Positions 21,122-34,161 of a stretch of DNA of 34,238 nucleotides are shown here, piece after piece. The notes under the pieces are model-generated. The model ran no database searches, had not been told where the DNA came from, and worked only from the letters and a program-made list of their open reading frames with translations. The DNA is from Candidatus Gallimonas faecavium (GTDB taxonomy: Bacteria; Bacillota; Clostridia; Christensenellales; Borkfalkiaceae). The stretch covers positions 1 to 34,238 of the forward strand of contig CAJFMF010000006.1 of assembly GCA_904391375.1 (NCBI GenBank). The letters are read 5' to 3'. Positions within the stretch are counted from its first letter, which is position 1; the number at the start of each line of letters is the position of its first letter. The position numbers were made by a program, and so were the translations under genes.

Positions 21122-23695
21122 TTATTTGCGCAATTTTTTATACTTTTCCCAGGGGAGCAAGAAGAGATATACCCCGAGAATGACAAGCGCAAGCACCGTC
21201 AGGATGATGATGAGCGAAATGCGCAGAACTTCCGCATTGTCGCGGTCGAGCATGGCTTCCGTCACCACCGCGCTGTATGCGGGATCGCTCACGAGATATG
21301 CCGTGAATGTGCCGTCCTCATTTTCGGCAAGACGCACCTGGACGCGCTCCGTAACCGTCTGCTGTGTCCCGTCTTCCGCCGTGAACACAATGCCGTCCGC
21401 ATTCGCTTTGAGATAGGCGAACTGGTATTCCTCGCCCTCCGTGAGCGAGGCGGGAATGTCCGAAAGATAGGACGCGGGAACCCATCCGCGTACCGTTTCG
21501 CGCGTAACGCTGTCGTCATATTCGATCAGAGCATAGGTGCGGTCGGGCGCTGTAAACGTCCCGAGAAGCTGCACCGCCGTGCCGCGCGCAAGGTTATTTG
21601 TCGCGAGCGGCGGGATTCCCTCCGTCGGCATGGGCTCGAGGCAGGGCGCATATGCGGCGCATACCGCATTGGAAAGCCACCGATCGCCGCTCTGCTCGGT
21701 GAAGGTGCCTTCCCGCGCAAGGATCGACTGCGCCTTGTACAGGCGTGCCGTATAGCTTCCGTCCGCTTCGGGGAACACGACGAGCGCATAGCCGCCCGCG
21801 CCTTCCGACGTCTCTGCCAGCAGGATTCCGCGGCGCTCTTCCACCGATCGGCCGTATCCGCGATAGGGGAAATAGGCGCTTTCCGAGGTGCGGAATTCCT
21901 CCAGATCGGTGTCAATGCCGACCGAACGCGCCGCAACGGTCACAAGAAGACCTTCCGCTTCGTGCAGCGAGAACGTCATCGCGCGCGCGCCGTCTTCCGC
22001 GATCTCGCCCAGCGTCGGGATTCCGTACAACGGCCCCGGCTGTCCCTCCGTGCTCGCATGGCTGACCACGACATAGTCCCCGAAGTTGAAATAGACCGCG
22101 TCGTCTTCGTATCCGAGCGCAAAGGAGCGGGGTGCCGTCTCGCCGCCCGCCGCATAGACAAAATCGCCGCCGTCCACCGAGGCAAACAGGACGCCGTTGC
22201 GGTACATGTCTTTGCCTAAAAGATAATAGAGATTGCCCTCGAAGTCCGCTTTCAGCGAGGTCGCCCCCGATGGCACGGCGTATCCGAGATCGGTCCCTTC
22301 TCCGCCCGCAAGAAAGGCCTCTTCCGTGAAGGAATACGCATTTCCGCTCGCATAGGAGACGTACAGCGAACCGTAGATGTCGCACGCAAGCCCCGTGGGG
22401 ACGGCGCTTCCGACTTCGACCGTCTCACCGCCCACAACGCCGCGCGAGCCGTTGCTCTTGATGTAATAGGTCTCGCCGTACAGCACGGCAAGCCCCGCAA
22501 TGTTCGCCCCCGAGAGCTGTGCCGACGTGAACGCCGTCTCGCCCGCCGCGTAGTCGCAGACATACACCTGCGCGCCCGAGGCATAGGCAATGCGCGATCC
22601 GTCCGTCGCGACCAGCGTGGGAGAGGTCTCGCACGGGACATAGGAATAGCTGTGCGCGGCAAGATCGTACACGCTCACGCGCGCATTGTCGGCGTCCGCC
22701 GTCACCAGAAGATCGCCCGCCCGCGCCGAGTCGGAGGCGTCCGAAAGACGGTTCACCGAGTCCGAGGCCGCCGCGATCTCATAGTCGGTAAAGGCTGCGG
22801 CGTTCTCCGTCACGGCGATCTCATGCACCGACGTCCCGCGGATACAGTAAAAATTGCCGTTCTCATAGGTGAGCGCGGACACGCCGCTCAGCGTCGGATC
22901 GGAGGACAGACAGACAGGGGTATCGCCCACCGCCGTCTGTCTGCGGAAAAATCCCGCCGCCGAGGAAAAATACAGGTACGTCCCGTCCGAACACACCGAC
23001 GAGATCCCGAGCCGATCGTTGTAATCCGCAATGTCAAATCCGTTGTAGTCCACGAACATCCCGTTTCCGTCCGAGTAGTACACCGTCCCGCCGACCACGC
23101 AGTAGAGCATATTGTTCGCCCACGTCAGCCACGGCTCCGTACCCGTCGAAAGGGTTCCGAGCGACGTCCCGTCACTCGAAAGATCGTCCAGCGAACGGCG
23201 CGCAAGCGTCATCTGACTCCCCGCAATGACCGCCGTGTACAGCGTGTTTCCCACAATGAGAAAGGTCGAACAGTTGAGCGGGTCAATGCGCTGCGCCGTC
23301 CCCGCCGTGCAGTCGTACTGCCAGAAGGAATTGGACGTCCCGCGCTGCGTGAAATACAGCTGCTCCCCCGAAAACTGGATCTTCGTGATCGTTGCGTCTG
23401 CCGTGTATGAGAGATAGGTCTCATTCGCTCCCCGTTCGTACAGATAGAGCGTGTTCCCGTCGGCAACGGCAATGTATTTTTCCGAAAATGCAACGTCGGC
23501 AGGATTTTCCAGCGCAAGATATTGCTCATAGCTCGCGGGAAGGAACAGCGACGCGTTCTCGACCGTGAGAACGGCTGGCTGCGTCGGCGCCGTTTCGGCT
23601 GCGGTTGCGGTTGTTCTTTGCGGGATTACGCCCGCCACCGTCCCCATCGCAAGCAGAACGGCAAGCGCGGCGCCCGCACTCTTTCGTATCGTCAT
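21122..23695 (-). CDS. Large secreted, C-terminally anchored protein with beta-propeller-like repeats and an SH3-like segment
   Basis: Signal peptide MTIRKSAGAALAVLLAMGTVAGVIPQRTTATAAE. Repeats of the form 'NxLYxxxxGxxxxYxD' over ~600 aa. SH3-like ARGTAVQLLGTF...VRGWVPASYL. C-terminal TM LRISLIIILTVLALVILGVYLFLLPWEKYKKLRK. Confidence 0.7.
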   Translation of the reverse strand: MTIRKSAGAALAVLLAMGTVAGVIPQRTTATAAETAPTQPAVLTVENASLFLPASYEQYLALENPADVAFSEKYIAVADGNTLYLYERGANETYLSYTADATITKIQFSGEQLYFTQRGTSNSFWQYDCTAGTAQRIDPLNCSTFLIVGNTLYTAVIAGSQMTLARRSLDDLSSDGTSLGTLSTGTEPWLTWANNMLYCVVGGTVYYSDGNGMFVDYNGFDIADYNDRLGISSVCSDGTYLYFSSAAGFFRRQTAVGDTPVCLSSDPTLSGVSALTYENGNFYCIRGTSVHEIAVTENAAAFTDYEIAAASDSVNRLSDASDSARAGDLLVTADADNARVSVYDLAAHSYSYVPCETSPTLVATDGSRIAYASGAQVYVCDYAAGETAFTSAQLSGANIAGLAVLYGETYYIKSNGSRGVVGGETVEVGSAVPTGLACDIYGSLYVSYASGNAYSFTEEAFLAGGEGTDLGYAVPSGATSLKADFEGNLYYLLGKDMYRNGVLFASVDGGDFVYAAGGETAPRSFALGYEDDAVYFNFGDYVVVSHASTEGQPGPLYGIPTLGEIAEDGARAMTFSLHEAEGLLVTVAARSVGIDTDLEEFRTSESAYFPYRGYGRSVEERRGILLAETSEGAGGYALVVFPEADGSYTARLYKAQSILAREGTFTEQSGDRWLSNAVCAAYAPCLEPMPTEGIPPLATNNLARGTAVQLLGTFTAPDRTYALIEYDDSVTRETVRGWVPASYLSDIPASLTEGEEYQFAYLKANADGIVFTAEDGTQQTVTERVQVRLAENEDGTFTAYLVSDPAYSAVVTEAMLDRDNAEVLRISLIIILTVLALVILGVYLFLLPWEKYKKLRK

Positions 23696-24274: not shown

Positions 24275-24946
24275 ATGGCGTATGAATATGTCAAAGTCAT
24301 TCTGTATGCCTACCCGCATCTGGCGGCGCTTGCCGATGCGGCGGGCGTTGCGGCGGAAAACAAGGCGCTCCTGTCCTTCCGTTCGCGCAGGGGGACACTC
24401 GAGGAGATGGAGCGCGTGACGGAGGAGCTTGCGGTGCGTTCCCGTCTGCTGCGTGTGCGCACGGCGGCCGACGCCTTTGTGCGCAGCTGTTCCGAAGAGG
24501 AATGTTTTTTGCTCGAGTACCGATATTTTCGGCGCAGGAAAAAGCTCAAGGGGTATGCCGAGTTTGTCGTGCCCTGGTCGGAGCGGACGTATTTTCGCAG
24601 ACAGAGCGCTCTTTTGAAACGAGCCGCAAGCAGTTTTGCGGCGCAGGGCTGGACAAAAGAGGCCTATGACGAGGCATTTTCTTCGTATTCGCCCTTTTGC
24701 AAGCTCCTGCGGGCGATCGCGGACGGGCGGGAGAGCGCCGTCACGGCGCGGCGGGAAACGTGCGGATTGGTCTTTGCGGGGCGTCAGAATTCCTGCTGTT
24801 CGCGCGGAGGCTTTTTCCCGCGCAGCAAGATGACGGCAACCGCGACCGCGGCCACGCACGCCAGCACGATGACGACGATCTGCACCGCACCCGGAGCGTC
24901 GTTGCCCGCGGGCGGGACTTCTTCTCCTTCGCCGGACGTGCTCTGA
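24275..24946 (+). CDS. Phage late-regulator-like protein (ArpU/RinA or sigma-region-4-like)
   Basis: Very strong SD aaaggaggt 5 nt before ATG. EEECFLLEYRYFRRRKKLKGYAEFVVPWSERTYFRRQSALLKRA looks like an HTH. Located just before the terminase. The last ~54 codons lie antisense to the convergent gene and look non-native. Confidence 0.5.
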   Translation: MAYEYVKVILYAYPHLAALADAAGVAAENKALLSFRSRRGTLEEMERVTEELAVRSRLLRVRTAADAFVRSCSEEECFLLEYRYFRRRKKLKGYAEFVVPWSERTYFRRQSALLKRAASSFAAQGWTKEAYDEAFSSYSPFCKLLRAIADGRESAVTARRETCGLVFAGRQNSCCSRGGFFPRSKMTATATAATHASTMTTICTAPGASLPAGGTSSPSPDVL

Positions 24947-25458
24947 AGGTAGTCGTCGTTGTGCTCGTATTCGGGCGGCGCGTCGGCGGGGATGTAGCCG
25001 AACTTGTCCCCCGAAAGGACATACAGATACAGCTGATCGCCTTCGTAGCGGTCGCCGTAGTAGACGAACGTGCGCTCGCTGCTCACAAATTCGTCCGTCC
25101 CGAGGCCGCCCGTGTCGGGCAATGTGTACGTCACGGTGATCTGTTTGCGCAGATAGGGACGCACGGGGACAAAGTCCACAAAGGTCAATGCGTCCGTGCG
25201 ACAGTAGCCAAGCAATTTCTTGTAGGGCGCGTCGTCCGTCTGATATTCCACCGTACAGAACAGCTCGCCCTCGTCGAGGACGCGCACATAGTAGGTCTGC
25301 GGCAGAAGAAAGAGCTTTTCGTCTTCGTCCGCGGAGGCGTAAAACCACACGTCCCCGACGGCAACGGCATAGCTGTCCTGCTCCGCCGCGGCGGCCGTCG
25401 TGCGCGCGGGCAGCAAAAGCGCCGCGAGCGCCAGGATAAAAACAATCCATCGTTTCAT
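24784..25458 (-). CDS. Secreted, membrane-anchored protein of unknown function
   Basis: Signal sequence MKRWIVFILALAALLLPARTTAAAAEQ; C-terminal TM VQIVVIVLACVAAVAVAVILLRGKK. ATG at 25458; the longer listed start overlaps the terminase. Confidence 0.65.
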   Translation of the reverse strand: MKRWIVFILALAALLLPARTTAAAAEQDSYAVAVGDVWFYASADEDEKLFLLPQTYYVRVLDEGELFCTVEYQTDDAPYKKLLGYCRTDALTFVDFVPVRPYLRKQITVTYTLPDTGGLGTDEFVSSERTFVYYGDRYEGDQLYLYVLSGDKFGYIPADAPPEYEHNDDYLQSTSGEGEEVPPAGNDAPGAVQIVVIVLACVAAVAVAVILLRGKKPPREQQEF

Positions 25459-25502
25459 ACGCGCTATCGTAGCGCATTCCGACGTGCGGGAGGGGGAGAG
25501 TT

Positions 25503-26951
25503 TTGCCGAATGACAACGAATTATCGCTGAAACTGCGTGCCGTGGAAAAAGAGCTCGCGCGCAGAAGGGCGTCCGATCATCTCGCCCGCTACAATACGGG
25601 CCGAAAAAAACATAAAAAACAGCTTGCCTTTCACAAGTGTAAAAAACGCAATCGCTGGGTGTTCGGCGGAAACCGCTCGGGCAAGACGGAGTGCGGCGCG
25701 GTAGAGGCCGTCTGGATGGCCCGCGGCATTCACCCGTATCGGAAAAACCGCAAAGACGTGTTCGGCTGGGTGGTCTCGCCCACGCTACAGGTACAGCGGG
25801 ACGTCGCACAGAAAAAAATCCTCTACTACCTGCGCCCCGACTGGATCGCCGATATCGTCATGGTGAGCGGCAGAAAGGACAATCCCTCCGCGGGCATCGT
25901 CGATCAGATCGTCGTCAAAAACGTGTTCGGCGGAACGAGCGTCATCGGCTTCAAGAGCTGCGATCAGGGCAGAGAGCGCTTTCAGGGAAGCTCGCTCGAC
26001 TTCGTGTGGTTCGACGAGGAACCGCCCCGCGACATCTACGAGGAATGCCTCATGCGCGTCCTCGACAAGGAAGGGGACATCTTCGGCACCATGACGCCCC
26101 TCAAAGGCCTGACCTTCGTGTATGAGGAGATCTACCTCAACCGCGGCGAAAATCCCGAAGTCTGGTACGAATTCATGGAATGGGGCGACAATCCCTTTCT
26201 CTCCAAAAAAGAGATCGCCATGCTCTCCCAAAGCCTTGATCCCGCCACCCTCGAATCGCGCCGCTACGGCCGCTTTGCCGCACGCGAAGGCCTCGTCTAT
26301 CCCGAGTTCGACGAACGCGTCCATGTCATCGAACCCTTTCCCGTCCCCCCCGAATGGCAGGCAGGCATCGCCATCGACCCCGGCCTTAAAAACCCGCTTT
26401 CGGCTCATTTTTATGCCGTCGACTGGGACGGAAATGTCTACGTCATCGCCGAACATTATGCGGCGGGTCACGATATCGACTACCACGCTCACGCCATTTT
26501 GGAACTCAGCGCCCGCCTCGGCTGGAAACGTGATGCCCGCGGACGCGTGGAGGCGCTCATAGACTCCGCGGCTTCGCAACGCACCCTCGCGGCCGAAAAA
26601 TCGGTGTCGGAACTGTTCGCCGAACGCGGCATCCTCGCCGATATGCACGTCGACAAAGATCTCTTTACGGGCATCGAGCGCGTCAAGAGTTACCTCAATC
26701 GCGAGAACGGATTGCCCGATCTGTATGTCTTTTCGGGTTGTACCAATATGATCCGCGAATTCAAAAGCTACTTCTGGGGAAGCGGCGATACGCCCGTCAA
26801 ACGCGACGACCACGCAATGGACGAACTGCGCTACTTCCTCATGAGCCGACCGCGCCCCGTGCGCGAGGGAGAGACTCCCGGTCCCATTACCCGCGACAAG
26901 GAACGCCGCATCCGCGCTCTCCTGCGCGCCAGACGGACGGGCAGACATTGA
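25503..26951 (+). CDS. Phage terminase large subunit
   Basis: Walker A FGGNRSGKTE, Walker B SLDFVWFDEEPP, GTMTPLKG coupling motif, nuclease-type AIDPGLKNPLSAHFYAVDWDG. TTG start with GGGAGGGGGAG upstream. Confidence 0.9.
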   Translation: MPNDNELSLKLRAVEKELARRRASDHLARYNTGRKKHKKQLAFHKCKKRNRWVFGGNRSGKTECGAVEAVWMARGIHPYRKNRKDVFGWVVSPTLQVQRDVAQKKILYYLRPDWIADIVMVSGRKDNPSAGIVDQIVVKNVFGGTSVIGFKSCDQGRERFQGSSLDFVWFDEEPPRDIYEECLMRVLDKEGDIFGTMTPLKGLTFVYEEIYLNRGENPEVWYEFMEWGDNPFLSKKEIAMLSQSLDPATLESRRYGRFAAREGLVYPEFDERVHVIEPFPVPPEWQAGIAIDPGLKNPLSAHFYAVDWDGNVYVIAEHYAAGHDIDYHAHAILELSARLGWKRDARGRVEALIDSAASQRTLAAEKSVSELFAERGILADMHVDKDLFTGIERVKSYLNRENGLPDLYVFSGCTNMIREFKSYFWGSGDTPVKRDDHAMDELRYFLMSRPRPVREGETPGPITRDKERRIRALLRARRTGRH

Positions 26952-27047
26952 ACGGGTTTTTGCGCCCCCTTGCCCGAAGCGAGGGGAAAGTCGCAAAAAG
27001 CACGGGCGGCGTCAGACAAAACAGGACACAGGGGGTTCCAAGAGGCG

Positions 27048-27224
27048 GGCGGAATGTTGCCCCGCGGGTCGTTGTGTACGGGCGGAAAGTATCCCGAGAG
27101 CGTTGCGCGGTGGGAAAGTGTACCCGTGGGACGCTGCGCAGGGGCGAGAGAGCGCCGCGCGAGCGGAAAGTGTGCCGCGGGACGTCGTTGCGCGGGGGCA
27201 AAAGCGCGCCGCAGGATGCCGCAC
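27048..27224. repeat. About five degenerate GC-rich repeats within the phage cassette
   Basis: ggcggaatgttgccccgcgggtcgttg / gggcggaaagtatcccgagagcgttgcgc / tgggaaagtgtacccgtgggacgctgcgc / gagcggaaagtgtgccgcgggacgtcgttgcgc / ggggcaaaagcgcgccgcaggatgccgca. Confidence 0.65.
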
Positions 27225-27264
27225 AAATTTTTATGCAAGGAGGACGGTCTGTGCAAGACAGCGT

Positions 27265-27537
27265 ATGATGCAGGATGACAAAGTGAGAGACGCGGTACTC
27301 AAAGTCGCCCTCGGCTTTCAGGTGGAGGAGGTGACGGAGGAGTATGACGCGCGGGACGGGGAACTGAAACTCGTCAAACGGCGGGAGACCCGAAAGGACA
27401 TTCCGCCCGACTTAAAGGCAGTCAGGCTTCTGCTGGAGGGGACGGACTATTCCGCGCTCTCCGACGAGGAGCTGGAGGCGGAGCGCGAAAAACTCATCGG
27501 CGCGCTCGCTGCGGAGCAGAAGGAGAAACCATCATGA
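27265..27537 (+). CDS. Small phage protein of unknown function
   Basis: MMQDDKVRDAVLKVALGFQVEEVTEEYDARDGELKLVKRRETRKDIPPDLKAVRLLLEG...; between terminase and portal. ATGA overlap with portal. Confidence 0.65.
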   Translation: MMQDDKVRDAVLKVALGFQVEEVTEEYDARDGELKLVKRRETRKDIPPDLKAVRLLLEGTDYSALSDEELEAEREKLIGALAAEQKEKPS

Positions 27538-29390
27538 CAGAGAAAGAAAAACTCAGGGAACGGCAGGAAAAACAGCGCGTCGAGGCGCTCGTGCGGGACG
27601 TCCGTTCCGACTTCGAGCGGCGGCGCAGGGCCCGCAGGACGCTCGAACGGGGCTGGGAGCTCAACATGAACTTTGTGAGCGGCAACCAGTTCTGCGACAT
27701 CAATCCCGCGGGGGAACTCGAGGAAGAGGCCGCGACGTTCTACTGGCAGTCGCGCCGCTGTTTCAATCACATCGCGCCCACGCTGGATACGCGTCTGGCG
27801 CGGCTCGCCAAGGTGCGCCCGTCGCTCGAAGTGCGCGCCTTCTCGGACGCCGACGACGACATGAAGACCGCGCGGCTTTGTTCCAACATCCTGCGCGCGG
27901 TCAAAAACCGCATCGACCTCGACGGCATTGTCTCGGCCGCGACCCTCTGGTCGGAGACGTGCGGCACGTCGTTTTACAAGATCGTGTGGAACCACGAGGA
28001 CGGAAAGGTCATCGGCGCCGACGCCGAAGGGCATTCGGTGCGCGAAGGCGACGTCAACGTCGTCGCGCTCTCGCCCTTTGAAGTCTACCCCGATGCGCTG
28101 ACCGCCGAGAGCATGCAGGAGGTCAACAGCCTCATCCACGCCAAGGCCGTCCCCGTGTCCTATCTTCGCGATAAATTCGGCGTGGAAGTGCCCGGCACTT
28201 CCATCTCCGATTTCCCGCTCGCACCCTATGCTTCGGCGAGCGGCTGGAAGCGTCCCGCGGACGGGAAAGACCGGCCCGTCCTCGAGGATGCGGTCATTCT
28301 CATCGAACGGTATACCCGCCCCGACGGCGAACATCCCAAGGGGCGGCTGGAAATCGTGGCGGCTGACAAACTGTTGTACGAGGGAGACCTTCCCTACGAG
28401 AACGGCGACCGCGGCGAACGCGTCCTGCCCTTCGTGCGGCAGACGTGCATCGCGCTCCCGGGGGCTTTCTTCGGGACGAGCGTCGTCGATCGCATGATCC
28501 CGCTTCAGCGGGCGTACAATGCGGTCAGAAACCGCAAGCACGAGTTTTTGAATCGGCTCTCGACGGGGGTCATCGCCGTGGAGGACGGCTCGGTGGACGC
28601 CGAGGAACTTGCGGAGGACGGGCTGTATCCCGGGAAGGTGCTCGTCTACCGCAGGGGATCGGAAAAACCGGGCTTCCTCGATTGCGGCAGCATTCCCGCA
28701 GAGTTCGAGAAAGAGGAGGAGCGGCTCGCGAATGAGTTCGTGCTCGTCTCGGGCATGAGCGAGATCTCGCGCAATTCCGCGAACCCGACGAACGTCACGT
28801 CGGCAACCGGACTGCAGCTCCTCCTCGACCAGGACACCAACCGGATGCAGCTGAGCGCGGAGAGCGTCGGACGTGCGGTCAGAGAGGCGGGAAAGCAGAT
28901 CCTGCACCTCTACAAGCAGTTCGCCGGCGCGCGCCGCGTGCTGCGCATGACGGGGACGGGCGGGGATACCGAACTCTTTGCGTTCTCACAGAGCGACATC
29001 TCGGCGGACGACGTTCAGTTCGAGCCGGGATTCGAGCGGACGGCGGATCAGAAAAAGGAGGACATCCTTTCCCTCCTTTCGCTCGGGCTCCTGCAGGATG
29101 CGGAGGGGAAACTCTCGGACGATACCAGAAACCGCGTGCTGGAAGCCATCGGGTTCGGTTCGTTCGAGAACGCGCGGGACATCTCGCATCTCCACCTCAA
29201 AAAGGCGGAACGTGAGAACCTCCTGCTGGCGCAGACCGATGTGGAGGCGGACGCCTACGATGATCACGCCCTGCATCGCACCGAACACGTCCGGGCATTG
29301 CTCTCGGGCGCGGAAAAAGATGAGGCGGTCCGCGCAAGGATCATGCGCCACCTTGCGTCGCACCGCGAAAAAGAAGGAGGAAAAGTATGA
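27534..29390 (+). CDS. Phage portal protein (podovirus/P22-like)
   Basis: 618 aa; ERGWELNMNFVSGNQFCDIN, NHIAPTLDTRLARLAKVRPSLEVRAFSDADDD, VVALSPFEVYPDALTAESMQEV, FGTSVVDRMIPLQRAYNAVRNRKHEFLNRL; position between terminase and scaffold/capsid. Confidence 0.78.
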   Translation: MTEKEKLRERQEKQRVEALVRDVRSDFERRRRARRTLERGWELNMNFVSGNQFCDINPAGELEEEAATFYWQSRRCFNHIAPTLDTRLARLAKVRPSLEVRAFSDADDDMKTARLCSNILRAVKNRIDLDGIVSAATLWSETCGTSFYKIVWNHEDGKVIGADAEGHSVREGDVNVVALSPFEVYPDALTAESMQEVNSLIHAKAVPVSYLRDKFGVEVPGTSISDFPLAPYASASGWKRPADGKDRPVLEDAVILIERYTRPDGEHPKGRLEIVAADKLLYEGDLPYENGDRGERVLPFVRQTCIALPGAFFGTSVVDRMIPLQRAYNAVRNRKHEFLNRLSTGVIAVEDGSVDAEELAEDGLYPGKVLVYRRGSEKPGFLDCGSIPAEFEKEEERLANEFVLVSGMSEISRNSANPTNVTSATGLQLLLDQDTNRMQLSAESVGRAVREAGKQILHLYKQFAGARRVLRMTGTGGDTELFAFSQSDISADDVQFEPGFERTADQKKEDILSLLSLGLLQDAEGKLSDDTRNRVLEAIGFGSFENARDISHLHLKKAERENLLLAQTDVEADAYDDHALHRTEHVRALLSGAEKDEAVRARIMRHLASHREKEGGKV

Positions 29391-29815
29391 CGGAAGAGGA
29401 GAACAAGGCGGAGAAACCCGCGGAGGCCGCAGTGCCCAACCTCGGAAAATTTCAGAACGTGGATGCCCTCATGCGCGCCTATCAGGAGCTGGAGGCGGAA
29501 TTCACCCGTCGCAGTCAACGCCTGAAGGCTCTTGAGGCAGCTGCAAAGCAGCCTGCGCAGGAGCAGGGCTCGCCCGCGACGGCGCCCGAAACGCCCGTCG
29601 CGGAGGCGGACAGCGAAGCGCTGCTGCGCGCCGTCAGAGGGAACGAAGAGGTATGCGCGCGCATCGTGGGGGAATACCTCGCGTCGCTCTCGGGCGTACC
29701 CCTTCTGGCGGGGACGGGCGCAGGAATCGTCGCACCCGTCGAGAGGGCCACGACGCTCAAACAGGCCGGCGCTCTCGCGCTCGGCTATCTCAAACATCGT
29801 AAAAACGGAGGTTAA
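29387..29815 (+). CDS. Putative capsid scaffolding protein
   Basis: LGKFQNVDALMRAYQELEAEFTRRSQRLKALEAAAK; small, acidic, located between portal and major capsid. ATGA overlap. Confidence 0.65.
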   Translation: MTEEENKAEKPAEAAVPNLGKFQNVDALMRAYQELEAEFTRRSQRLKALEAAAKQPAQEQGSPATAPETPVAEADSEALLRAVRGNEEVCARIVGEYLASLSGVPLLAGTGAGIVAPVERATTLKQAGALALGYLKHRKNGG

Positions 29816-29820
29816 TTTTT

Positions 29821-30975
29821 ATGGTTACGACCACTTCGGCAGACGGCGTCCTGAAGTCTTATTACCTGGATGCCGTGGCAGAACAGCTCAACAAGACGGC
29901 AAATCCCTTGCTTGCCGCCATCGAACAGACGTCCTCGGACGTCTGGGGAAAGGACGTCCGCAAGGCCGCCGTGTACGGCGTCCACGGCGGCGTCGGCGCG
30001 GGCACCGAGGACGGAGCCCTGCCCGCTACGTCGGGTGGCGGCTATGCCCAGCTCACCGCAACGCTCAAAAATCTCTACGGCAGGATCGAGATCTCCGATA
30101 AGGCCGTGCGCGCTTCCCGCGGCGACGAGGGCGCGTTCGTCGACCTGCTCAATACCGAAATGGAACAGCTCATCAAGAGCTCGTCCTTCAACTTCGGCAG
30201 AATGCTCTTCGGCGACGGGAGCGGAAAACTCGGCACCGTCAGCAGCGTTTCCGGTACCACTTACACTATGGACAGCGTCCGCAACTTTGCGGTCGGCATG
30301 ATCGTCGACATCATCGGCTCCGGCGGCGAAAGCGTCGCAACGGCACGCACCGTCACGGGCGTCGACTATGCGAACGGCACCATCACGCTCTCGGGCGCTT
30401 CCGCCACGAACGCGGGAAACTGCGGCGTCTACGTCCAGAACTCGCGCGATCAGGAGATCACCGGCCTCGGCGCCATCTTCTCTTCGTCCGAGACCCTCTA
30501 CGGGCTCACGCGTGCCGATCATCCCTGGCTCAATCCCGTCAAGGTCGAGGTCGAAGGCGCCATCACCGAAAATGCCGTCCAGAAGGCCATCGACCTCGTC
30601 GAGGAGAGCGCCGGAAGCAAGGTGAACTTCATCGTCTGCTCGTGGGGCGTACGGCGCGCTCTCTTCAAGGTGCTCTCCGCCTATCGCCAGATCGATACCG
30701 TCGAGCTCGCAGGCGGCGCAAAGGCCATCACCTTCAACGGCATTCCCGTCGTCGCCGACCGCTTCTGCCCTTCGGGAACGATGTACCTTCTGAACACCGA
30801 CGACTTCCGCCTGCACCAGCTCTGCGACTGGCAGTGGCTGGAAGGGGAGAACGGCAGAATCCTCGCACAGGTCCCCGGCAAGCCCGTCTATACGGCGACG
30901 CTCGTCAAGTACGCCGAACTCCTGTGCAGCCGTCCCTGCGGACAGGCCGTCCTCACGGGCATCACCGAAGAATAA
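29821..30975 (+). CDS. Phage major capsid protein
   Basis: AAIEQTSSDVWGKDVRKAAVYG...LKNLYGRIEISDKAVRAS...DLLNTEMEQLIKSSSFNFGRMLFGDG, C-terminal FNGIPVVADRFCPSGTMYLLNTDDF. Confidence 0.8.
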   Translation: MVTTTSADGVLKSYYLDAVAEQLNKTANPLLAAIEQTSSDVWGKDVRKAAVYGVHGGVGAGTEDGALPATSGGGYAQLTATLKNLYGRIEISDKAVRASRGDEGAFVDLLNTEMEQLIKSSSFNFGRMLFGDGSGKLGTVSSVSGTTYTMDSVRNFAVGMIVDIIGSGGESVATARTVTGVDYANGTITLSGASATNAGNCGVYVQNSRDQEITGLGAIFSSSETLYGLTRADHPWLNPVKVEVEGAITENAVQKAIDLVEESAGSKVNFIVCSWGVRRALFKVLSAYRQIDTVELAGGAKAITFNGIPVVADRFCPSGTMYLLNTDDFRLHQLCDWQWLEGENGRILAQVPGKPVYTATLVKYAELLCSRPCGQAVLTGITEE

Positions 30976-30991
30976 GCAAAGGAGGGACGGT

Positions 30992-31555
30992 ATGCTCATC
31001 AAAGACGTACTCATTCTGGCCGCAGAGGAGCTCGGACGGGCGGACTTCGTCCCTCTCATCGAGCAGGCCGCCGCATCGTCTGCCGCGCCCGACGGCGAGA
31101 TCGCGACGCTGCTGCGCTGCTATCAGCTCGTCGAAAACGAAGTCGCCCTCGACCATTTTCCCCTCCGCGCAGAGGAGTCCTTTCTTCCCGCGGATGACGC
31201 CGTGCTCTTTACGCGCTTTTCCAAGGCACCCGTGGACGTGCTCGACGTCCGCGATGCCTGCGGGCGGCGCGTGGCGTTCACCGTCTATCCTTCCCGTCTC
31301 CTCCTGCCGCGCGGAACGGGCGAGGTGACCGTCGTCTATTCCTATGCCCCGACGTGCGCGGAGATCGGCGACCAGACGGCGTTCTCCGACAAGATCTCGG
31401 CGCGCCTGCTCTCCTACGGGGTGGCGTGCGAGTACCTGCTCGCGGGCGGACGGTACGCTGAAGCAGCCGTCTGGGATGAGAAATTCCATGCCGCCCTCAG
31501 CGCCGCAGGCCTGGAGCGCAGGAAACTCTCCGTTCCCGCAAGGAGGTGGGTATGA
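30992..31555 (+). CDS. Putative head-tail connector / adaptor protein
   Basis: 187 aa immediately after the capsid gene; LIKDVLILAAEELGR...LLRCYQLVENEVALDHFPL...ISARLLSYGVACEYLLAGGRYAEAAVWDEKFHAAL. Confidence 0.55.
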   Translation: MLIKDVLILAAEELGRADFVPLIEQAAASSAAPDGEIATLLRCYQLVENEVALDHFPLRAEESFLPADDAVLFTRFSKAPVDVLDVRDACGRRVAFTVYPSRLLLPRGTGEVTVVYSYAPTCAEIGDQTAFSDKISARLLSYGVACEYLLAGGRYAEAAVWDEKFHAALSAAGLERRKLSVPARRWV

Positions 31556-32835
31556 GCGTTCCTTCCAACAGACGGCACATCGTGCGCTTCAAAGCCGCCT
31601 CCATGCGGGCGGGCGAAGGACGCGTGCGCGCCCTCCGCCTCGATCATCTGCGGGAGGAAAAAGGTGCGCTCGTGTGTGCGGAAGGGGAGAGCACGGCGAC
31701 AACACTTCCCTCGCTCACCACCGACATCTGGTGCGTCGGGGACCGACTTCTCGCCTATCGTGCCTCCCGCAAGACGCTCACCGTGCTCATGAACAACCGT
31801 ATGTACCTTGTCGGTGAGGAGGTCATCCGCGTCGCGGAGATCGTCGAATCGAGCGGGGCAAAGAGCATCTTTGTCATCTGCCCCGACGGACTTTACCTGT
31901 TCTCCAATGTCGGCGTTTCGACGACCAAGTACGACCCTGCCCCCACGACGACCAACCTCGTTCTGTTCCACGAGCGCGTCATCGGGGCGGCGGGACAGCA
32001 GATGCGCTATACCGCTCCTTCGGACATCCGAAGCTGGGTGAACTACGGCGAACAGACTGCGGGTTGGTGCGACCTTCTCCCCACGGGCGGGGATGTCGTG
32101 GATGTCGTCGGAATGCGCGGAAATGTGTACTTCCTGCGCGAACACGGTATCACCTGTCTGACGGGCTATGTGGACGTGTATAACTTCCGACTGGAGGATA
32201 TTCCGTTCGGCATGGGACGCATTGTCAGCCATGCGGCGGTGATCGGCGAAAAGGCGTATTTTTTCACCGAGTGCGGCCTGTGCTGCTTCGACGGGTCGCG
32301 GACGGAACGCGCGCCCGGCGCCATGGACGAAGAGATCGATCTGTCCAACATCCTGCGCGTGCAGATGGCGGGGGAGCGGATCTTTGCCGCTTCCGTCGGA
32401 CTGACGGACGGAAGCCAGGCGCTCTATCTCTATGAGCCTGCACGCGAGCGCGGCCGCTTCGTCCGGCGCAACTTTGAGAACTTCACGGCGGGAGACGACA
32501 TCTATCTCATGCGCGGCACCGCGGCGTATCGTCTGACGGGGCGCGCGCTTCCCTCCGGCGGTTCCTGCTGTCTGACGGCAACGTTTGCCCTCGGCGATCT
32601 CGGCGAGGGGGAAAAGCGGCTGGAAGGGGTGTTCCTCGACGGAAAGGGCAGCTTCGAGGTCGAGGCGGTCGGCGAGGACGGCATCGCGCGTTCGCGCACG
32701 GGGGAAGCAGGGCAATGGATCGATTTTCCCGCAAGCGTTCGCGGGGAAACCGTGACATTGCGCATTCAATCCTCCGATGTTGATCTCTCGATCGGGGAAA
32801 TTCTTCTTCGGGTTCGGCGGGAGGACAGAGTATGA
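31552..32835 (+). CDS. Putative tail hub / nozzle or DNA-stabilisation protein (P22 gp10-like by position, beta-propeller-like)
   Basis: Beta-rich repeats (GVSTTKYDPAPTTTNLVLFHERVIGAAGQQMRYTAPSDIRSWVNYGEQTAGW...); ATGA overlap with connector at 31552. Confidence 0.5.
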   Translation: MSVPSNRRHIVRFKAASMRAGEGRVRALRLDHLREEKGALVCAEGESTATTLPSLTTDIWCVGDRLLAYRASRKTLTVLMNNRMYLVGEEVIRVAEIVESSGAKSIFVICPDGLYLFSNVGVSTTKYDPAPTTTNLVLFHERVIGAAGQQMRYTAPSDIRSWVNYGEQTAGWCDLLPTGGDVVDVVGMRGNVYFLREHGITCLTGYVDVYNFRLEDIPFGMGRIVSHAAVIGEKAYFFTECGLCCFDGSRTERAPGAMDEEIDLSNILRVQMAGERIFAASVGLTDGSQALYLYEPARERGRFVRRNFENFTAGDDIYLMRGTAAYRLTGRALPSGGSCCLTATFALGDLGEGEKRLEGVFLDGKGSFEVEAVGEDGIARSRTGEAGQWIDFPASVRGETVTLRIQSSDVDLSIGEILLRVRREDRV

Positions 32836-33323
32836 CCATTGACATCATTGATCTGACCGATCCCGAATACGCCGACCTCAACGCCGTACAGCTCTCGATG
32901 GTGCGCGTGGCGCAGGGGAAAAAGGACGACATTCTCGCCCGCGCGGAAGAGGAAAAGACGCAGCTCAAAAATCAGCTCATCGCCAACAATTTCGCGCGTT
33001 CCTCCGTCTTTGAATACACCGAACAGCGCATCGACGATGCGGCGACGGCAGAGGTGGAGGTCGTCAAAGAGGACCTTCTCTATCAGCTCGCGTATGAATC
33101 GCTCGGCACCGAGGGGAATGAGATGGGGCCTTACCGCTATCCCGAGAATCCCAATTACAACCTCACGGCTTCCCAGCGGTTCCTCGTCGTGCGCAACTAC
33201 TACATGGACGTGACGGACGATCCCAATGCCCGTTTGCAGTCCTATTCGATGGATTCCCTCGCGCGGACCTATCTCGGCGAATTCTATTCGACGCTCTATG
33301 ACCTTCTCGCCTCGTATTGCTGA
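32832..33323 (+). CDS. Last gene of the phage-type cassette, unknown function
   Basis: 163 aa, ATGA overlap with the upstream gene; YRYPENPNYNLTASQRFLVVRNYYMDVTDDPNARLQSYSMDSLARTYLGEFYSTLYDLLASYC. Confidence 0.6.
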   Translation: MTIDIIDLTDPEYADLNAVQLSMVRVAQGKKDDILARAEEEKTQLKNQLIANNFARSSVFEYTEQRIDDAATAEVEVVKEDLLYQLAYESLGTEGNEMGPYRYPENPNYNLTASQRFLVVRNYYMDVTDDPNARLQSYSMDSLARTYLGEFYSTLYDLLASYC

Positions 33324-33423
33324 GCGGGAGCGTTTCTCCTCGTAATGTCAGGAGAACCCCGCTCGCAGAAGGCGGGCGCATACGGCATGCACGGTAAGCC
33401 ATCAAAACCGTTTTCAAACGGCG

Positions 33424-33455
33424 CAGACCCCGAAAGTTTCGGGGTCTGTTGTTTT
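33424..33455 (+). terminator. Terminator closing the phage-type cassette
   Basis: cagaccccgaaa-g-tttcggggtctg perfect inverted repeat followed by ttgtttta. Confidence 0.8.
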
Positions 33456-33523: not shown

Positions 33524-33599
33524 GGGGTTATAGCGCAGTTGGTAGCGCGTTTGAATGGCATTCAAAAGGTCAGGGGTTCGACTCCCCTTAGCTCCACCA
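33524..33599 (+). tRNA. tRNA-Ala, anticodon GGC, encoded CCA
   Basis: GGGGTTA/TAGCTCC acceptor, GCGC D-stem, TTTGA-ATGGCAT-TCAAA anticodon arm, AGGGG-TTCGACT-CCCCT T-arm, CCA end. Confidence 0.93.
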
Positions 33600-34161
33600 A
33601 ACGCGACGTATACGCACACTCTGCGTTTATGTCAGAAAAAGAAACCGCTTTGTCGGTTTCTTTTTCATTTTCGGGCATTTTTTGGGCAATTTCGCCGTCG
33701 TCGCCGTGTCCGTCGGGATAATCGGGGAAAAGCAGGTTTAAGAGCAGTTCGCCCTGTTGCCCGCCTTTTAGGTGGAACAACACTTTCATTTTATCGTCGT
33801 ACAGTATCACCCTATAAATGAACGTGTCTATCAGGTCTTTGCGGCTCTTGGTCTTGGAATAGTCAAGTGTGCGGAAGTGCGACAACCCTTTGCGAATGTC
33901 GGCGTAACTGTAATTTATCTGCATTGCCTTTTCGTTGGCGATTGTGTCTTGCAGTTCCTTGTTTTCGTTCTCTAACTTCTCAATTTGCGACAGAATGGTG
34001 TCGGCAATCTTGCCGAGCATTAACGCCTGCATAAGATTGTTTATCGCCTTTTGGTTTTCCGCGACAAGGTTTTCAAGCCGTTTTATCTCGGTGTCGTTCT
34101 GCTCCGACTGGATAAGCAAATAAGTTTCTGCGGCAACAAGGTCAATAAATTCGTCGGTCAA
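33562..34161 (-). pseudogene. C-terminal fragment of a large serine recombinase reading into the tRNA gene
   Basis: Coiled coil IKRLENLVAENQKAINNLMQALMLGKIADTILSQIEKLENENKELQ and SRKDLIDTFIYRVILYDDKMKVLFHL typical of large serine recombinase C-termini. In-frame TAG upstream (34182-34180). C-terminal LVELRGVEPLTF is antisense tRNA. Confidence 0.72.

Follow-up and report, generated by a model that had tools for sequence, protein, structure and literature searches.

Gene content of the cluster

We have analyzed a stretch of DNA from Candidatus Gallimonas faecavium (Clostridia, Christensenellales; contig CAJFMF010000006.1), which we call the window. It is one whole contig of 34238 bp, from a genome of 1.64 Mb (88% complete, 120 contigs). 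Its right-hand part contains a compact cluster of phage-type packaging and structural genes. A previous description made from the letters alone, referred to below as the sequence-only reading, took them for a head-only element: a GTA-like packager (GTA, gene transfer agent), a satellite or a domesticated particle. Our results suggest that the cluster is probably a GTA derived from a short-tailed phage of the P22/SU10 type and fixed in the chromosome, whose main function would be to package host DNA, probably random pieces of it, for transfer. The features are given below; genomes, loci and families are labelled G, L and f when they have to be told apart.

21122..23695, minus strand: F3, predicted surface protein of 857 amino acids with a C-terminal membrane segment; conserved left neighbour
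24275..24946, plus strand: U1, regulator-like protein, candidate late activator; weak profile matches, conserved beside the cluster
24784..25458, minus strand: F31, divergent from TerL; family of membrane proteins, with an SH3-type domain seen in relatives
25461..25475, no strand: inverted repeat GCGCTA-TCG-TAGCGC, operator candidate read in the sequence of the F31/TerL divergent promoter region
25503..26951, plus strand: TerL, large terminase, packaging ATPase and nuclease; Terminase_6N 1.3e-11, phrog_2 1.1e-31
27268..27537, plus strand: TerS, small terminase of about 89 amino acids without an N-terminal helix-turn-helix; partial phrog_309 match
27534..29390, plus strand: portal protein, P22/SU10 type; P22_portal 1.9e-17, phrog_156 3.3e-32; 41/41 loci
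29387..29815, plus strand: scaffold candidate, from its position between portal and capsid; 41/41 loci
29821..30975, plus strand: major capsid protein, podovirus type; NCBIfam capsid_maj_Podo 2.7e-78, phrog_14242 3.2e-56
30992..31555, plus strand: head-to-tail adaptor, gp4-like, short-tailed phage type, from an AlphaFold2 model and Foldseek matches
31546..32835, plus strand: tail nozzle, P22 gp10-like, short tail, from a model and Foldseek matches
32832..33323, plus strand: short form of the DUF7934 family, 163 amino acids, putative tail-tip or internal virion protein, from an iterated profile
33423..33449, plus strand: Rho-independent terminator closing the cluster; 12-pair stem, T-rich tail
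33524-33599: tRNA-Ala

All cluster genes of the window are open frames. The terminase, portal, scaffold position, capsid, connector, nozzle and last gene of the sequence-only reading are real, as profile matches (TerL, portal, capsid) and intact frames indicate. Its four ATGA overlaps (27534, 29387, 31552 and 32832) are present, and so are the strong terminator and the tRNA gene behind it. On the other hand, the count of eight genes, all on the plus strand, has to be changed: F31, on the minus strand, and U1 had both been overlooked, and both are conserved with the cluster. The small gene described there after the terminase does exist, but it corresponds to a TerS of about 90 amino acids starting near 27265 or 27268, not to a protein of 144 amino acids. 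Profile searches of the window proteins give no informative family match for the scaffold candidate (29387-29815). The contig end limits the view to the right of the cluster in the window, relatives with longer flanks settle that side.

Terminase, tail and candidate control genes

TerL has an intact Walker A motif (GGNRSGKT) and an intact Walker B-type motif (VWFDEEP). The PF03354 profile, which represents the wrong terminase family, gives no match in this genome. The TerS family is present in 39 of the 41 loci compared, with a length of 83–95 amino acids in the genus and in most other families, and the gap after TerL is too small for a longer TerS in most loci. These proteins align only within positions 194–262 of phrog_309, a profile of 319 positions; the window TerS covers 194–242. 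The basal genomes G092 (L046) and G072 (L053), which branch together and apart from the rest, have a TerS of 173–177 amino acids, aligned from positions 126 and 132 of the profile. It precedes TerL in these genomes, and the L053 protein has helix-turn-helix-like matches. Judging from these alignments, the cluster TerS appears to have lost the N-terminal DNA-binding half which is kept by G092 and G072. Published GTAs have no detectable DNA-binding domain in TerS (PMC11841831; PMC6854486), and by sequence the same is found here. The space between TerL and TerS in the window (26952-27264) contains about 260 bp of extra imperfect GC-rich repeats, which are missing in most congeners.

The structure prediction proposed with the sequence-only reading identifies an adaptor and a nozzle fold. 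The model of 30992-31555 (predicted local distance difference test, pLDDT, 92.8) matches in Foldseek the adaptors or connectors of KHP30, Shigella B2, P1, Pa223, DEV and SU10. For 31546-32835 (pLDDT 90.8) the matches are the Pa223 tail (1.9e-17, TMq 0.72), Pam1, VP1 and P22 gp10; there is also a weak profile match to a SU10 surface protein (9e-4). Searches of the portal, capsid and adaptor sequences against the PDB give no useful match. From these models, the particle is predicted to have a short tail, with adaptor and nozzle encoded in the cluster. A head-only element, as the sequence-only reading had it, is ruled out by these two folds.

The last gene, left there as an unknown, is indeed present, but it codes for a shortened DUF7934 protein, whose family marks the cluster end in 41 of 41 loci (homologues detected with an iterated profile). 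Forms of 290–350 amino acids occupy the same position in other families, and a full-length homologue matches PF25588 at 1.2e-55. In two families, additional genes of 310–626 amino acids and unknown family lie between nozzle and DUF7934: L045 (12.3–15.0 kb) and L051 (10.6–13.5 kb; capsid strand +). Beta-helix-like proteins are seen in G092 (L046, L047). The extra genes of L045 and L051 and the beta-helix-like proteins of G092 are possible candidates for receptor binding.

Of the 41 loci, 35 have U1 next to the cluster and 36 have the F31 family in the same position. U1 matches the phrog_248 transcriptional activator weakly (E 0.013), and for a homologue from another family the match is to sigma region 4 (Sigma70_r4_2, 8e-4). 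The F31 family carries membrane segments; its homologue in L050 has an SH3_3 match at 1.6e-4, and the window copy has no significant Pfam match. A gap of 45 bp separates the start codons of F31 and TerL, and it contains the 15-base inverted repeat. By eye and without statistics, this repeat is identical or nearly so in the close relatives L032, L033, L034 and L041. Both U1 and F31 remain with TerL in family f28, where the cluster is split. This lasting association with TerL in a dispersed set indicates that both genes are part of the system. F3 occupies the same position in 26 of 26 genus loci, and L244, from the same family, has a related protein; the Pfam matches of F3 are weak only, and it is perhaps part of the system.

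Conservation, inheritance and dispersal

Most genomes of the genus have the cluster. The capsid gene is found in 57 of 60 congeners, with no internal stops. It is single-copy, except in G044 (two copies) and in G016, where contig ends split the gene. One of the capsid-negative congeners, G009, has F3, U1 and TerL right before a contig end, which brings the count to 58 of 60; completeness is 75% and 66% for the remaining two genomes. The cluster is colinear in all 26 genus loci, and the gene order is also kept across the whole set of 41 loci (about 20 kb each). All 38 loci longer than 20 kb contain TerL, TerS, portal, scaffold, capsid, connector and DUF7934; the counts for U1, F31 and nozzle are 37 each. 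The left flank (F3, often also a GH43 gene) is common to the genus, the right flank is variable. No conserved integrase, replication, lysogeny, primase or satellite-regulator gene is found in the cluster or flanks of the 41 loci; a tyrosine recombinase seen by eye next to the cluster occurs in one genome only (L056).

One scan across species genomes yielded at least 517 relatives of the capsid. The free phages of the reference collection are only distantly related, with a capsid identity of at most about 31%. Sixteen IMG/VR contigs classified as viral (L072-L087) carry this capsid gene, most of them with several cluster genes. They are mostly short and may be misfiled chromosome fragments.

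The cluster is inherited vertically with its host, at a fixed place. We have compared a TerL, portal and capsid tree with a tree of the host gene parE in 36 genomes, bearing in mind that parE by itself is weak as a species tree. The two trees share 17 of 33 splits (permuted names give a mean of 0.22 and a maximum of 3), and 11 of the 15 well-supported parE splits are recovered. The distance correlation is 0.96 overall and 0.70 within the genus; none of 5000 permutations is as high.

Structural and packaging genes are under purifying selection. The ratio of nonsynonymous to synonymous substitutions (dN/dS) was obtained by the Nei-Gojobori method in seven congeneric pairs, with some synonymous distances near or above 1. 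Most genes have values of 0.05–0.3, none above 0.56. TerL is among the most constrained (0.05–0.17), portal and capsid are also low, and the last gene (DUF7934) shows 0.06–0.24. The highest values, up to 0.56, correspond to scaffold, adaptor and nozzle, the nozzle being the fastest-changing of the larger structural genes.

The set is compact in the window and occupies several loci in two other families. In f28, whose genomes are 0.8–1.2 Mb in size, U1, F31 and TerL form one locus, 40–47 kb from a second one with TerS, portal, scaffold, capsid, connector, nozzle and holins; the flanking genes agree between species. In f76, from another order, TerL, portal and scaffold-capsid-connector-nozzle are found on three contigs with shared flanks. 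G445 has its capsid gene about 53 kb from the portal gene. Neither a prophage nor a satellite could package as a unit a set which is dispersed in this fixed way over two or three loci. The genes of a GTA can be located apart from one another. Two other causes for the missing portal and TerL in f76 were discarded: Stop-codon reassignment was tested and ruled out, as the genes sit at other loci, and no runs of N are present.

Prophage-like relatives are also found: L239 has a DnaB helicase, while L240 has an internal virion protein and tail fibres. The DnaB-bearing L239 (G259 contig 18) shares its genome with a dispersed set of the same families.

A probable gene transfer agent and its alternatives

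The proposal of a GTA is supported by protein families, folds, conservation, vertical inheritance, purifying selection, the TerS loss, the lack of replication and integration genes and the dispersed loci. For the nature of the packaged DNA, delivery, control by U1 and release, we infer the following course. U1, as an activator, would turn the operon on. Scaffold and capsid would assemble a prohead on the portal. TerL, with a TerS lacking the domain which reads the sequence, would start on essentially any host DNA and fill the heads. Adaptor, nozzle and DUF7934 protein would then complete a short tail, through which related cells would receive the DNA, and the particles would leave through lysis encoded elsewhere or through death of the producer cell.

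Several points weigh against this proposal. No particle, packaged DNA or transfer is on record for the genus. No tailspike, fibre or receptor-binding protein has been identified in the genus cluster, where no dedicated search for fibre families was made, and no holin or endolysin is recognised in it. BhlA and Phage_holin_1 are absent from the 37 genus genomes searched, a search which did not cover other lysis families. Elsewhere in the order the capsid gene is found in only 17 of 40 genomes, also without stops. Some pairs are discordant between the trees, for example G045/G048, and rare horizontal transfers are possible. Finally, a host function other than transfer, such as a toxin-like particle or a structural role, predicts equal conservation.

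This last point leads to the main alternative, which we consider rather unlikely: a domesticated particle kept by selection for a host function other than gene transfer, for instance as an empty head or a killing particle. The role of the particle cannot be read from vertical inheritance or purifying selection, and PBSX offers a precedent, as it packages host DNA without injecting it (PMC12946183). Nevertheless, the cluster has no contractile or long tail and no bacteriocin-like fibre module. The intact ATPase motifs of TerL, together with its place among the genes under the strongest constraint, point to selection for DNA packaging as such. An ordinary or decaying podovirus prophage that is merely common in the genus seems very improbable. 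The homology to phages is clear, and relatives with a replication helicase (L239) or tail fibres (L240) exist in other families. However, a near-universal presence, a host-like tree, a syntenic left flank and purifying selection are not what such a prophage would show; the cluster lacks replication, integration and lysogeny genes, its TerS is truncated, and the homologous genes of other families are distributed over two or three fixed loci.

The compact set of head and packaging genes, without replication or lysis genes, would also suit a capsid-forming satellite (like the capsid-forming phage-inducible chromosomal islands, cf-PICI), which packages itself and uses the tails of a helper phage. 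This option of the sequence-only reading now appears extremely improbable. The cluster has no integrase, primase or satellite regulator, it encodes its own adaptor and nozzle, its inheritance is vertical and nearly always single-copy, and its TerS lacks the domain required for recognising its own DNA. The preference of that reading for a retained GTA-like or domesticated element over a decayed prophage, on the other hand, is strongly supported by the truncated TerS, the dN/dS values, the congruent trees, the conservation of the cluster and the dispersed loci of relatives. Neutral dN/dS, sporadic presence and flanking genes for tail, lysis or integrase, which were named there as arguments to the contrary, are not seen in the genus, but two holins do end the cluster in other families.

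The closest known system is FpGTA, the GTA of Faecalibacterium (Nat Commun 2026, PMC12946183). Its 10.5 kb operon codes for TerL, a TerS without an obvious DNA-binding domain, portal, scaffold, capsid and short-tail proteins, without replication genes; a second operon of 5.5 kb codes for tail fibre, holin and endolysin. Its particles measure 40 nm and contain about 9 kb of DNA, and it is present in 12 of the 12 Faecalibacterium genomes examined (PMC12946183). Both hosts are gut Clostridia and the gene sets are similar, a likeness which is based on the published description of gene content and order, not on sequence; the portal-scaffold-capsid order is consistent with the FpGTA accession numbers. 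There are also differences: TerS lies before TerL in FpGTA and after it here. The genus cluster also has a divergent SH3/membrane gene, lacks lysis genes and belongs to another host lineage. Neither the Faecalibacterium 16S probe site nor the MAM protein of F. prausnitzii (a search with no positive control) was found in 391 genomes of the class, among which we identified no genome of Faecalibacterium. GTA-like packaging has been reported in Christensenellaceae, with no gene cluster given (PMC12946183), and our literature search found no report of a GTA gene cluster for this bacterial group.

Other systems are less similar. RcGTA, from Rhodobacter capsulatus and relatives, also consists of vertically inherited, phage-derived packaging genes without self-replication, and its TerS too has no DNA-binding domain (PMC11841831; PMC6854486). 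It is a long-tailed particle of Alphaproteobacteria, while the cluster is of podovirus type. P22, SU10, Pa223, VP1 and actinobacterial phages such as Microbacterium phage Shocker resemble the cluster in portal and capsid families or in adaptor and nozzle folds. These podoviruses are complete viruses, with replication, lysis and receptor-binding genes, and their identity to the cluster is low (about 24–31% for the capsid). PBSX of Bacillus subtilis is a long-tailed killing particle; no contractile-tail genes are found in this cluster. It resembles our proposal in being a domesticated phage particle of a Gram-positive host which packages chromosomal DNA (PMC12946183).

The cluster is a strong gene-level candidate for GTA activity in a large group of uncultured gut Clostridia. 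To our knowledge, GTAs have been well studied in Alphaproteobacteria only, and FpGTA, published in January 2026, is the sole podovirus-type example. The relatives form a natural series: prophage-like ones with complete TerS, compact clusters with truncated TerS, and sets split over two or three loci. Both phage-to-GTA evolution and the movement of genes by GTAs in animal guts become directly testable questions.

In other families the cluster ends with BhlA and Phage_holin_1 holins, and all BhlA matches in genomes with a retrieved cluster fall inside that cluster. For the genus, the particles may be released by an unrecognised lysis gene, by genes of a second operon (the FpGTA arrangement) or when the producer dies. 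Particle production might also be tied to sporulation, with release at lysis of the mother cell, which would explain the absence of lysis genes. We regard such a link as unlikely: Housekeeping genes are the neighbours in other families, and the capsid-bearing G311 and G222 have no spoIIIAA. The co-occurrence of cluster and spoIIIAA is uninformative, as this gene is nearly universal.

The hints at such a link are some sporulation genes found nearby, perhaps by chance. In four genomes of f76, the portal gene directly follows the spoIIIA operon (SpoIIIAA, AB, AE, AF, AH) on the same strand: L269, L271 and L272, at about 6.7–9.6 kb, and L270, on the minus strand. In f28, the germination protease gene gpr and groES-groEL are neighbours of the capsid locus. 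Of the 26 genus loci, 8 have spoVAC close to the cluster.

Two more features lie near the ends of the window. An unclassified coiled-coil open reading frame on the minus strand (33562-34161) overlaps the tRNA-Ala gene; the contig stops 77 bp past this frame. By eye it gave the impression of the C-terminus of a serine recombinase, which we discarded after Pfam, NCBIfam and plasmid searches came out empty. The left contig end codes for a predicted right-handed beta-helix surface protein (60-1709, PF13229), which is unrelated to the cluster.

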